Positions 17,174-28,169 of a stretch of 64,000 nucleotides of DNA are shown in pieces (within the stretch, counting starts at the first letter, position 1; each line of letters starts with the position of its first letter). Below the pieces are notes generated by a model. The model saw nothing but the letters and a program-made list of their open reading frames with translations. It did no database searches and was not told the origin of the DNA. Where the stretch lies: contig NZ_JAJGMW010000006.1 of assembly GCF_020782115.1 (NCBI RefSeq), forward strand, positions 62,001 through 126,000, written 5' to 3'. A program made the position numbers and the translations under genes. The stretch comes from Leeuwenhoekiella parthenopeia. Lineage in GTDB: Bacteria; Bacteroidota; Bacteroidia; Flavobacteriales; Flavobacteriaceae.

Positions 17174-19054
17174 TTAGGCGTTAAATTTACGATCCAGCTC
17201 GTCTACACTAAGCGTTATAAAGGTTTTTTTATGAAATGGAGACAAGGACGGCTCTGTACAGGCAAATAATTTATTGACCAAATGCTCCCGGGATAACTCA
17301 TCAAGCTTTTCTCCGGTTTTTACCGCCATACTCTTGGCCATGCTTTTAGCCAGAACATCGGTTTGGCTAAAGCCCGAATCGGGAACCTCGTGCTCTACAT
17401 CACTTAAAAGTTGTTCTAATACAATTGAAACTTCACTTTCGGGAATTCCGGCAGGAATCCCACTTATTTCAAGCACGCCTTCTTCAGACATATTGAGCAT
17501 AAAACCGGTATTCTCGAGAGATTCTTTCAGTTCGCCAATAATCATCCATTCAGTAGGCGAAAAATCCAGCCTCAGCGGAAAAAGCAATTGCTGACTCACC
17601 GATTCTTTAACGGTAATATTGCGTAAAAATTCTTCATAAAGCACCCGCTGATGCGCACGCTGTTGATCGATGACCAGCATACCGCTTTTAATGGCGCTTA
17701 CAATATATTTATTATGTAGTTGATAGGTATTTGCCGTCTCAGTTTCTGTCATGGGTTTATCACCAAAACCCCTGCTTTCCTGCTCCACAAAAAGCGACTC
17801 GGTTTCAGATTCTTCCTCCATCTCAAGACTGCTGAAGGAATTTGAACGGGATTGCTTCTCAAGACCCTCGTAGAGATTTTCCCAACCTGCAGCGCTCTTT
17901 TTTTCATAATTGGGCGTGCCGCCAAAACCACTTTTAGGACTTACCGTCTCAAAGGGATTGAAGTTGCGATCCACATCAATACGCGGGGCCTCAACGGCCT
18001 TGTTTTTATAAGAATACGGCGTATCCATACTAGACTCCCGGTTAAAATCAAGAACCGGAGCGATGTTAAATTGCCCCAGACTGTGTTTTACTGCCGCACG
18101 CAACAAGGTATAGATGGCGTGCTCGTCTTCAAACTTCACCTCGGTTTTGGTAGGATGAATATTGATATCTATAGTCTTGGGATCTACCCGGAGAAACAGA
18201 AAATAACTGGCTCTCGCCCTGTCGGGTAACAAACCGTCAAAAGCTGCACTTACCGAGTGATTGAGATAGGGATGCTTGATAAAGCGGTCGTTTACAAAAA
18301 AGAACTGCTCCCCTTTGGTTTTCTTTGCAAATTCGGGCTTTACGATAAAGCCTTCGATAGTAACGATTTCGGTATCTTCAGTCACCGGGACCAGTTTTTC
18401 ATTGGTCTTAGGACCAAAAACACCAACGATACGCTGTCTTTTATTGGTTTTTGGAAGATTGAAGAGTTCGCCATCATTGTGATACATCACAAAAGAAATT
18501 CCTTCGTGTGCCAATGCAACGCGCTGAAATTCATCAATAATATGCCGGAGTTCGACTGAATCGGATTTGAGAAAATTCCGCCTTGCGGGAATATTAAAAA
18601 ACAAATTTTTTACGGCGATGGAAGTGCCTTTGAGACAGGCGCAAACTTCCTGCGATTTGATTGTGCTGCCCTCAATCTCAATTTGGGTTCCTACATCTTC
18701 TCCTTCGGGCCTTGTTTTTAAATCTACGTGAGCAACTGCAGCGATTGAAGCCAAAGCCTCGCCTCTAAAACCTTTGGTATGTAAGGCAAATAAATCTTCG
18801 GCACTTGAAATCTTGGAAGTTGCATGCCGCTCAAAAGAAAGCCGGGCATCTGTAGTGGTCATTCCCTTACCGTCATCAATCACCTGAATCAGGGTACGAC
18901 CTGCGTCTTTTATCAACAGCTTGATTTGAGTCGCTTCGGCATCAATGGCGTTTTCCAGAAGTTCTTTAACCACAGAAGCCGGGCGTTGTACCACTTCTCC
19001 TGCAGCGATTTGATTAGCCACATGATCGGGTAAAAGCTTGATAATATCAGACAT
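17174..19054 (-). CDS. mutL: DNA mismatch repair protein MutL
   Basis: MutL (626 residues) couples mismatch recognition by MutS to strand removal. The N-terminal GHKL ATPase is complete: LPDHVANQIAAGEVV, the catalytic Glu34 and Asn35 in ELLENAIDA, DGKGM at 61-65 and GFRGEALASI at 95-104. The transducer domain runs to about residue 330, followed by an acidic, Ser-rich linker (330-440) and the C-terminal dimerisation domain. The site where nicking MutLs carry DQHA-x2-E-x4-E reads DQQRAHQRVLYEE (463-475). The His, Ala and first Glu are replaced, so endonuclease activity is doubtful. Start at ATG 19054. Confidence 0.95.
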   Translation of the reverse strand: MSDIIKLLPDHVANQIAAGEVVQRPASVVKELLENAIDAEATQIKLLIKDAGRTLIQVIDDGKGMTTTDARLSFERHATSKISSAEDLFALHTKGFRGEALASIAAVAHVDLKTRPEGEDVGTQIEIEGSTIKSQEVCACLKGTSIAVKNLFFNIPARRNFLKSDSVELRHIIDEFQRVALAHEGISFVMYHNDGELFNLPKTNKRQRIVGVFGPKTNEKLVPVTEDTEIVTIEGFIVKPEFAKKTKGEQFFFVNDRFIKHPYLNHSVSAAFDGLLPDRARASYFLFLRVDPKTIDINIHPTKTEVKFEDEHAIYTLLRAAVKHSLGQFNIAPVLDFNRESSMDTPYSYKNKAVEAPRIDVDRNFNPFETVSPKSGFGGTPNYEKKSAAGWENLYEGLEKQSRSNSFSSLEMEEESETESLFVEQESRGFGDKPMTETETANTYQLHNKYIVSAIKSGMLVIDQQRAHQRVLYEEFLRNITVKESVSQQLLFPLRLDFSPTEWMIIGELKESLENTGFMLNMSEEGVLEISGIPAGIPESEVSIVLEQLLSDVEHEVPDSGFSQTDVLAKSMAKSMAVKTGEKLDELSREHLVNKLFACTEPSLSPFHKKTFITLSVDELDRKFNA

Positions 19055-24683: not shown

Positions 24684-25706
24684 ATGAAAAAAGCAGAAAT
24701 AGTCCTTCTCAAATCCTTATTAGCATCACCTAAAAAGATTGTAATCATCCCGCATAAGAATCCCGATGGTGACGCGATGGGTTCTACCCTGGCCCTGGGG
24801 CAATATCTTACCAAGACCGGCCATAGCGCTACGGTAATTACCCCAAATGATTACCCGAAATTTTTAAAATGGCTGCCCGGCGATAATCAGGTGGTTAATT
24901 TTGAATTTCAAAACAAAAAAGCCAAACGCCTTATCAAAGAAGCCGAGCTTATCTTTACTCTGGATTTTAACTCGCTTTCGCGTGTGGGCGATATGCAGCA
25001 TGATCTGGATAAAGCTACCGCGCAATTCATCATGATAGACCATCACCAGCAACCCGATGATTATGCCGTGGTAACCTACAGTGATGTCACGGTCTGTGCA
25101 ACCTGCCAGATGGTGTATCACACCTTTGAGATGCTTGATGCCACCCACCTGGTAGACGCAGATATGGCGACCTGCCTGTATACGGGAATTATGACCGACA
25201 CGGGATCCTTCCGCTTTAGATCTACCACAGCAACAACGCATCGTGTGATTGCAAACCTTATTGAAAAAGGTGCCGATAATGCTTACATCCACCAGCAAAT
25301 TTTTGACGCCAACAGCTATGAGCGTATGCAATTGCTGGGCACGGCACTTACCAATCTTGTAAAACTTGAAGATTATAAAACTGCCTACATCACCTTATCC
25401 CAGGCAGAACTAGACAAACACAATTATCAAAAAGGCGACACCGAAGGTTTTGTAAACTACGGCCTGTCACTAGACGGAGTGGTTTTAGCCCTTATTTTTA
25501 TTGAAAATGAACAGGAAGGCATCGTCAAAATCTCGTTGCGCTCTAAAGGGGATTTTTCGGTTAATTTGATGGCACGTGAACACTTTGAAGGAGGAGGCCA
25601 TACCAATGCAGCCGGCGGTAAAAGCGATCGCTCGTTACAGGAAACAGTTGACTATTTTATTAGTATATTACCCCAATACAAAGAAGCCCTGAATGAACAA
25701 ATTTAA
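24684..25706 (+). CDS. nrnA: NrnA-like DHH phosphoesterase (oligoribonuclease/pAp phosphatase)
   Basis: DHH/DHHA1 enzyme (340 residues) that degrades short oligoribonucleotides and 3'-phosphoadenosine 5'-phosphate, replacing Orn in bacteria that lack it. Motif I is HKNPDGDAMGS (24-34), the second motif is LDFNSL, the DHH triad is at 119-121, and the DHHA1 domain ends with the RNA-binding GGGHTNAAGG near 310-319. Length is normal. It leads an operon with gldI, overlapping it by 14 bases. NrnA upstream of gldI is an arrangement I recall from other flavobacteria. Confidence 0.9.
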   Translation: MKKAEIVLLKSLLASPKKIVIIPHKNPDGDAMGSTLALGQYLTKTGHSATVITPNDYPKFLKWLPGDNQVVNFEFQNKKAKRLIKEAELIFTLDFNSLSRVGDMQHDLDKATAQFIMIDHHQQPDDYAVVTYSDVTVCATCQMVYHTFEMLDATHLVDADMATCLYTGIMTDTGSFRFRSTTATTHRVIANLIEKGADNAYIHQQIFDANSYERMQLLGTALTNLVKLEDYKTAYITLSQAELDKHNYQKGDTEGFVNYGLSLDGVVLALIFIENEQEGIVKISLRSKGDFSVNLMAREHFEGGGHTNAAGGKSDRSLQETVDYFISILPQYKEALNEQI

Positions 25707-26250
25707 TTTCCTCTTAGTTGCCCTACTGGCTCTTGCCGGTTGCAAGACTCCCGAGGCGCGCCGCCCCGTAAGTCACACCGGCGGTTCTTATATTGATGCT
25801 TCCATAGCGCGAAATAAGGAGCTCAATAAAGCCGAAGAATCTGCCATAAAAAAATTGATGGAAGCCAATCCGCAGTATGAGTATTTTACTTCAGACAAAG
25901 GTTTCTGGTATTATTATAATGTAAAAGATACGACCGCGCTTGCCACAGCAGAAACCGGTGACCTCGTTACTTTTAATTATGAAATTCAGACGCTTAAGGG
26001 AGACGTTATTGTAAGTGAAGAAGAACTGGGCACTCAAACCTATCAAATTGAGCAAAGCAATCAGGATTTGATTTCTGGGCTTAAGGACGGACTCAAATTG
26101 ATGAAAGAAGGCGAGACTGTTACCTTTTTATTGCCTTCGCATAAAGCTTTTGGGTACTACGGCTACCTTGATAAAATTGGTTCAAACTGGCCTATTCAAA
26201 CGCGGGTTACACTTAACCACATCAAGTCTGGCGAGGCAAACACCCCCTAA
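25693..26250 (+). CDS. gldI: GldI, gliding-motility FKBP-type peptidyl-prolyl isomerase lipoprotein
   Basis: Lipoprotein of 185 residues with Cys17 in the lipobox (LAGC) and a C-terminal FKBP-type domain (about 90-180) including EEELGTQTYQIEQSNQDLIS, LKDGLKLMKEGETVTFLLP and HKAFGYYGY. GldI is needed for gliding in Flavobacterium johnsoniae and probably helps fold envelope proteins of the gliding/type IX secretion machinery. Several FKBP active-site aromatic positions are changed, as is usual for GldI. Translational coupling to nrnA by a 14-base overlap. The next gene, 52 bases on, codes for another PPIase, so this is a periplasmic folding unit. Confidence 0.9.
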   Translation: MNKFNFLLVALLALAGCKTPEARRPVSHTGGSYIDASIARNKELNKAEESAIKKLMEANPQYEYFTSDKGFWYYYNVKDTTALATAETGDLVTFNYEIQTLKGDVIVSEEELGTQTYQIEQSNQDLISGLKDGLKLMKEGETVTFLLPSHKAFGYYGYLDKIGSNWPIQTRVTLNHIKSGEANTP

Positions 26251-26302: not shown

Positions 26303-27472
26303 ATGAGAAACGTGACCTACTTTGCATTTCTAATTTTGTTAACCTTTACAGGTTGTTCTGATGATCCCTATCCGGACCTTAAAGATGGCCTGTATGCGCG
26401 TATTAAAACGGAAAAAGGCAGTATGCTTTTTGAACTGTTTTACGATAAGACGCCTGCAGCAGTATCTAATTTTGTTTCTTTGGCTGAAGGTGAAAATCCA
26501 TTGGCAGATACCATTTACAGCGGAAAACCTTACTACAATGACCTCACCTTTCACCGCATCATCAAAGGCTTTATGATTCAGGGAGGTGACCCTCAGGGAA
26601 GCGGAAGCGGAGGCCCGGGATATAAATTTCACGATGAGTTTCACCCGGAGTTAAAGCATGATACGATAGGAGTACTTTCTATGGCCAACTCGGGTTACGA
26701 TACAAACGGAAGCCAGTTTTTTGTCACTCAGGTTCCCAGTCCGCATCTGGATGCATACACCGCGGAAGGTGAATTAAAAAACTGTTCTAATCCTCAAATT
26801 GGCTGCCATACGGTTTTTGGTCAGCTACGTGAAGGTTTTGACGTGCTTAACGCCATTTCTGAGGTTGAAATGCTTAATCCCAAAACCGGCAAGCCCCGCA
26901 AACCTGTTAAAATCGAGGAAGTAACTATTATACGAAAAGGTAAAAAAGCACGATTTTTTGATGCGCCTCAGGTATTTACTAAAGAAATAGAGCGTAAAGA
27001 AAAAGAACGCAAACAGGCGGCCGAAGAATTACAGCAGCGCAAGGACTCCAAAAAAGAGGAGTTTGAAGACTTACGCAAGCAGACTGACAGCCTGCCAAGC
27101 GGTCTGGCTTACATTCTTACCCGGGAAGGCAGCAAGATTAAGCCCAAAAGATCGCAAAGCGTTAAGGTTCTCTATGCCGGTTACTTTAGTGATGGCGAAC
27201 TCTTTGACACCAATATCAAAGAACTTGCAGAAAGCTGGAATATGCAAACCCGCCCAAAACCCGATATGTACAAACCTTTGGAAATCCCATACGGACCTGA
27301 AGCAGAGATGATCGCCGGTTTTAAAGAGGGCATTCAAGAACTTAATTACGGTGACAGGGCCACACTCTTTATCCCATACTACTTAGGCTATGGAGAGCGT
27401 GGATACCGTATCATTCCGCCGCGTACCAATCTGGTTTTTGAGGTAGAACTACTTGAAGAGGAGACTGAATAA
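26303..27472 (+). CDS. double peptidyl-prolyl isomerase lipoprotein (cyclophilin + FKBP)
   Basis: Lipoprotein (389 residues, Cys18 in FTGC) with two different PPIase folds in one chain. The cyclophilin domain covers about 28-212, with FHRIIKGFMIQGGDP (83-97) holding catalytic Arg85 and SMANSGYDTNGSQFFVT. A Lys/Glu-rich helical linker (225-262) follows, then an FKBP domain (about 268-385) with VKVLYAGYFSDGELFD and IPYYLGYGERG. Both domains look complete. It acts at the periplasmic face of a membrane. It follows gldI on the same strand and probably shares its transcript. Proteins of this design occur in Bacteroidota. The client set is unknown. Confidence 0.9.
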   Translation: MRNVTYFAFLILLTFTGCSDDPYPDLKDGLYARIKTEKGSMLFELFYDKTPAAVSNFVSLAEGENPLADTIYSGKPYYNDLTFHRIIKGFMIQGGDPQGSGSGGPGYKFHDEFHPELKHDTIGVLSMANSGYDTNGSQFFVTQVPSPHLDAYTAEGELKNCSNPQIGCHTVFGQLREGFDVLNAISEVEMLNPKTGKPRKPVKIEEVTIIRKGKKARFFDAPQVFTKEIERKEKERKQAAEELQQRKDSKKEEFEDLRKQTDSLPSGLAYILTREGSKIKPKRSQSVKVLYAGYFSDGELFDTNIKELAESWNMQTRPKPDMYKPLEIPYGPEAEMIAGFKEGIQELNYGDRATLFIPYYLGYGERGYRIIPPRTNLVFEVELLEEETE

Positions 27473-27622: not shown

Positions 27623-28130
27623 ATGATTACATTTAAGAGAAACATCATAAGCCTGGCGCTTACCGGCGCTTTACTTGGGGGATTTAGCCTTACGGCGAAA
27701 GCACAACAGGCAGAAACTCCTATAGCAGATCAGGCACAGACCGAAATCACCCCTGACGAACTCAATAATTTTGCAGATGCCTTTGTAGAGGTGCAAAGTG
27801 TAAATCAAAACGTCAAGCAGAAAATGATGGCATTAATTACCGAAAACGGTCTCGAGGTAGAGCGTTTTAACGCCATTCAGAAAGCAAAAAATGAACCCGG
27901 AAGTACCTGTGCAGGCAACGGAAGATGAATTGAAAAAGCATGCGCAGATTGTCGCGCAATTGCAGGAAATGCAGCCGCTTCTGGTAGAACAAATGAAGGA
28001 AGTTATTGAAAACCACAACCTTTCCTTTAACCGGTATCGCGAAGTTGCAATGGCATTGCAACAAAGCAAGGACTTACAAAAGCGCTTTCAGGACGTTATG
28101 AATCAAAAGCAAACAAATTCTGAAGGATAG
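27623..28130 (+). pseudogene. DUF4168 exported protein, split by a one-base frameshift
   Basis: Two adjoining frames together make one DUF4168 protein of about 168 residues. The first (27623-27928) gives a signal peptide ending AKAQQ and the repeat TPDELNNFADAFVEVQSVNQ ... ENGLEVERFNAIQKAK. The second (27891-28130) continues with QATEDELKKHAQIVAQLQEM ... ENHNLSFNRYREVAMAL. These are the two homologous halves of the family. The break is at a run of six A (27886-27891). With five A the frame reads straight through ...QKAKMNPEVPV... So a one-base insertion has occurred, or a sequencing error, or a slippery switch. As it stands, the first frame ends after about 14 wrong residues. The second ATG (27891) could by chance start a leaderless half. 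Confidence 0.85.
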
Positions 28131-28135
28131 AAACT

Positions 28136-28166
28136 AAAAAAGGAGCTGGTAAACAGCTCCTTTTTT
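28136..28166. terminator. bidirectional terminator, DUF4168 / pepD
   Basis: Arms AAAAAAGGAGCTG and CAGCTCCTTTTTT around a five-base loop, with T runs on both strands. Confidence 0.92.
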
Positions 28167-28169
28167 TAT

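Follow-up and report, generated by a model that had tools for sequence, protein, structure and literature searches.

Why should two overlapping reading frames that match the same protein family meet at a run of six adenines? The window (the whole 64,000-nucleotide stretch of Leeuwenhoekiella parthenopeia DNA analysed) carries ORF A (27623-27928, plus strand), which starts with ATG and encodes 101 aa, and ORF B (27891-28130, plus strand), which also starts with ATG and encodes 79 aa; the frame changes at an A6 run at 27886-27891 (plus strand). ORF A consists of 89 native residues, made up of an N-terminus that by eye resembles a signal peptide, a linker and a first repeat, followed by 12 out-of-frame residues and a TGA. 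ORF B, in the next frame, carries the protein's second repeat and has no signal peptide. Together the two make up one DUF4168 (PF13767) protein, as its consecutive halves; each fragment on its own scores above the curated cut-off of 25.8 bits (35.5 bits for ORF A, 32.0 for ORF B), and the coordinates given in an earlier note on this DNA are exact. A tblastn search with the intact protein of a relative gave the same picture: residues 1-92 align in one frame, residues 85-168 in the following one (E 2e-74).

The reading that we favor, with a probability of about 0.7, is a recently arisen loss-of-function allele of the single DUF4168 gene, whose intact form encodes a probably exported, two-repeat helical protein. 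A second DUF4168 copy was not found in the strain's own genome. A working member of the family is expected to occupy a single open frame, an expectation that lies outside the Pfam definition itself; here there are two frames, versus one in each of the 42 copies from relatives that were read directly.

In the near relatives, the intact protein has 168 aa, with two homologous repeats and a signal-peptide-like N-terminus; it is probably exported. The homology of the two halves, already proposed in the earlier note, was borne out by alignment of the repeat 1 and repeat 2 profiles (hhalign probability 96.3, E 2e-9, 44 columns). An AlphaFold model of a relative's protein (mean pLDDT 73.9, with residues 1-38 below 50) predicts helices at residues 44-74 and 79-90, then at 100-130, 135-147 and 149-166; the break thus falls at the end of the first predicted repeat (helices 44-90 vs. 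100-166). NCBIfam held no family matching the intact relative, a scan of a viral collection returned no relative, and a literature search on DUF4168 and PF13767, in a limited collection of papers, returned no function. Kinship with HP0242 of H. pylori, a knotted protein, was considered and dropped: family-profile matches were weak (E 0.17), a tandem chimera of HP0242 reached E 0.0022 as a sum over two identical copies, Foldseek with the AlphaFold model gave no match at E ≤ 0.001, and the best VIA-align score of the model (Z 5.8) lies in the range of common helical arrangements.

The intact state of the gene is documented in relatives at the same locus. The nearest named loci are those of L. 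nanhaiensis G18 (L040; G004:C6) and the metagenome-assembled genome MAG SP167 (L041; G002:C24), whose orthologues belong to the same family, are 77-86% identical to the window's protein over the two halves, and consist of one 168-aa open frame, whereas the window gene is broken at the A-run. The gene order, namely DHH phosphoesterase, gldI, double PPIase, the DUF4168 gene, a convergent dipeptidase, pterin dehydratase and YebC, is kept on both sides in both. A terminator-like hairpin with a T run (28142-28167, no strand assigned), conserved in both relatives by alignment, sits between the DUF4168 gene and the convergent dipeptidase. Rough identity between the window's contig and the L. nanhaiensis contig was 84.1% over 104 of 173 fragments; the ANI value given for L. 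parthenopeia and L. nanhaiensis in a published account is 88.0% (PMC9859067). At the site itself both relatives have A5 in register, and the other 14 copies of the first genome set have at most four A, none with an extra base.

Conserved separate genes in relatives, which the earlier note had named as evidence that would speak against a disruption, were looked for and not seen: 0 of 50 distinct DUF4168 copies from 46 other genomes are split (for 42 the sequence itself was read; for the other 8 the open-frame column of the search table was the sole source). The first genome set had a DUF4168 match in 16 of 60 genomes, own included; the others contribute 16 copies in 15 of 59 genomes, all single frames of 150-169 aa (0/16 split). 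The family-wide set had a match in 37 of 397 family genomes, again counting the strain's own, with 39 matches in the other 36 of 396 (0/39 split), and each of the 30 matches read directly is covered by one open frame of 147-179 aa. Five of the 39 were already in the first set (four among the 30 read, one among the remaining nine). L. marinoflava DSM 3653 has two DUF4168 copies on two contigs (L045 and L048; 61% and 51% identity to the L. nanhaiensis protein), and is the sole two-copy species among 12 other genus members in the first genome set; L. blandensis MED217, for example, has one copy.

These comparisons fit a simple course of events. Ordinary replication slippage would have added one A to the run, a state known from one assembly; compared with the two nearest relatives the run has one additional base, so the first frame stops after 12 foreign residues and repeat 2 is out of frame. 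Translation would give a product of 89 native and 12 foreign residues, and the cell would export at most a one-repeat fragment. The ATG of ORF B does overlap the run, as had been pointed out before, and it corresponds to Met90, which is in frame in the two nearest relatives, and not to a separately evolved start; any product restarting there would be cytoplasmic, having no signal peptide. Pseudogenes arising by gain of one base in a short homopolymer are a known kind, and the window gene shares with them the added base in an A-run, a premature stop and otherwise little decay, with no notable difference. Both mutS and mutL have family matches over their cut-offs and no internal stops, so these two genes give no sign of a mutator. 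For annotation, the two ORFs belong together as one disrupted gene and should not be entered as separate proteins. A real lesion would suggest that the protein, encoded by a single copy here, can be dispensed with at least under isolation conditions, which would make the strain a natural null for DUF4168, a family of unknown function.

How old such a lesion could be was approached through codon comparisons with the two near relatives. For the second half, dN/dS was 0.035 (0.065/1.85) against L. nanhaiensis G18 and 0.044 (0.086/1.958) against MAG SP167, with contig medians of 0.041 and 0.035, respectively; synonymous distances near 1.85-1.958 make these ratios rough. Window-specific differences, defined as codons at which the window departs from a state common to both relatives, and left unpolarised by an outgroup, were non-synonymous in 9 of 30 cases in the out-of-frame part (binomial probability 7e-6 to 3e-7, assuming neutral non-synonymous shares of 0.70-0.75), and in 1 of 13 over its last 38 codons (5e-6 to 6e-7 on the same assumption). 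This pattern indicates that selection acted on the now out-of-frame part through most of the divergence. With purifying selection still visible there, either the break is of very recent origin or the living strain lacks it; in the loss-of-function reading, the retained mark of selection makes the lesion young.

The first half behaves differently. Fifteen of its 26 window-specific differences are non-synonymous (probability 0.04-0.13), 8 of these 15 lying in the linker, and its dN/dS of about 0.13 is close to the contig's 95th percentile (0.131). The ratio of its pN to the pN between the two relatives is 4.4, where the 95th percentile is 2.55; for the second half this ratio is 2.2, also higher than the median of 1.41. 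As judged from these codon counts, the first half is under less clear constraint than the second. A fast-evolving linker may account for the first-half excess, which a single young frameshift would not. This linker, between signal peptide and first repeat (27707-27751, plus strand), has 8 of 15 codons changed at the amino acid level, counting codons where both near relatives agree with each other and comparing the window with both; its amino acid divergence is far above that of the rest of the gene.

Of the four options raised in the earlier note, fresh pseudogene and, with less likelihood, assembly error are retained given the intact copies in relatives, and phase variation and programmed frameshifting are left without positive support, the run being short and unconserved and split copies absent. 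An error in the assembly or consensus, with an intact gene in the living strain, is the main rival. We consider it improbable but worth taking seriously: the change is carried by one assembly only, and the second half still looks constrained. Against it stands a frameshift scan of the 177-kb contig for genes lying in two frames relative to both near relatives, in which the DUF4168 gene was the only one broken against both; the scan is blind to one-base shifts near gene ends and to genes without a match. Matches were obtained for 115 of 209 ORFs of the L. nanhaiensis G18 contig and for 145 of 164 ORFs of the MAG SP167 stretch, with 103 and 136 full-length in one frame and one and two flagged, respectively. 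The second flag against MAG SP167 was not counted against the window genome because that ORF also differs from L. nanhaiensis. The remaining 11 and 7 matches, neither full-length nor flagged, included none with two frames; they comprised matches below 50% identity, matches at contig ends, a single shifted start, and a single ORF matched as two distant pieces of the same frame. In the reverse scan, one 236-aa ORF of the window's contig, which we read as an acetyltransferase-like protein, appeared split in both relatives, but its match is good only from about residue 70, pointing to a wrongly placed start and no frame change.

Homopolymers as such are commonplace on this contig. The 93 ORFs intact in the three-way comparison contain 218 runs of six to nine identical bases (154 of six, 54 of seven, 9 of eight and 1 of nine; 64 longer than six), a figure that serves as a denominator only, because intactness was the criterion for including an ORF. 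The 10-base context CAAAAAATGA is present once in the window, against a chance expectation of 0.68, and the A6 run by itself is unremarkable. Since the DUF4168 gene alone is broken while such runs are common in intact ORFs, a systematic homopolymer problem in the assembly is unlikely.

The same runs bear on phase variation, in which A-run length would toggle the gene on and off, the site being a young contingency locus at which the DUF4168 protein is switched, or cut to a secreted one-repeat form, within the species. A one-base homopolymer gain is the sort of change such a switch would involve, constraint persists in the second half and the product is probably exported, but we regard this as very unlikely. 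Phase-variable homopolymer genes are recognized by a long, hypermutable repeat kept across relatives; here the run is only six bases long, in a contig whose genes commonly have runs of at least six, and it shrinks from A6 to A5 in the two nearest relatives and to four A or fewer in the other 14 copies. No off copy was present among those found in relatives, and the intact mutS and mutL also speak against it.

Recoding, by ribosomal +1 frameshifting or by transcriptional slippage on the A-run to yield some full-length protein, has a still smaller chance of being correct. The A-run lies exactly at the junction, and low-level slippage could give a trace product, but recoding would be superfluous in relatives, and a conserved split layout or shift site is absent (0/50 copies in relatives split). 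The 112 nt of RNA from the site onwards are no more stable than shuffled versions (z -0.45), although some known programmed frameshifting sites need no RNA structure. Transcriptional slippage is usually discussed for longer runs. A bacterial survey places the run length at which selection becomes evident at nine bases for a large fraction of genomes, suggests that slippage on eight A is productive in some organisms, and leaves room for shorter runs in a number of bacteria (PMC1088944). Least probable of all is a working two-chain version, with halves made separately that then associate. In its favor, the frame changes where the first of the two predicted repeats ends, and ORF B opens with an ATG. 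Against it, the second piece lacks a signal peptide, that ATG simply corresponds to Met90, in frame in the near relatives, and the layout is absent from every copy found in relatives.

Some features of the surroundings can be added. Upstream, the DHH phosphoesterase gene (24684-25706, plus strand), NrnA-like but below its curated cut-off, overlaps gldI (25693-26250, plus strand) by 14 bases. The gene right after gldI (26303-27472, plus strand) encodes a cyclophilin-type part (residues ~32-209) and an FKBP-type part (~230-385), and its protein, at 72.6% identity, is the least conserved of the six neighbors compared with the two near relatives. The genome's mutL also lies inside the window, at 17396-19042 on the minus strand (G000:C55:79396-81042).
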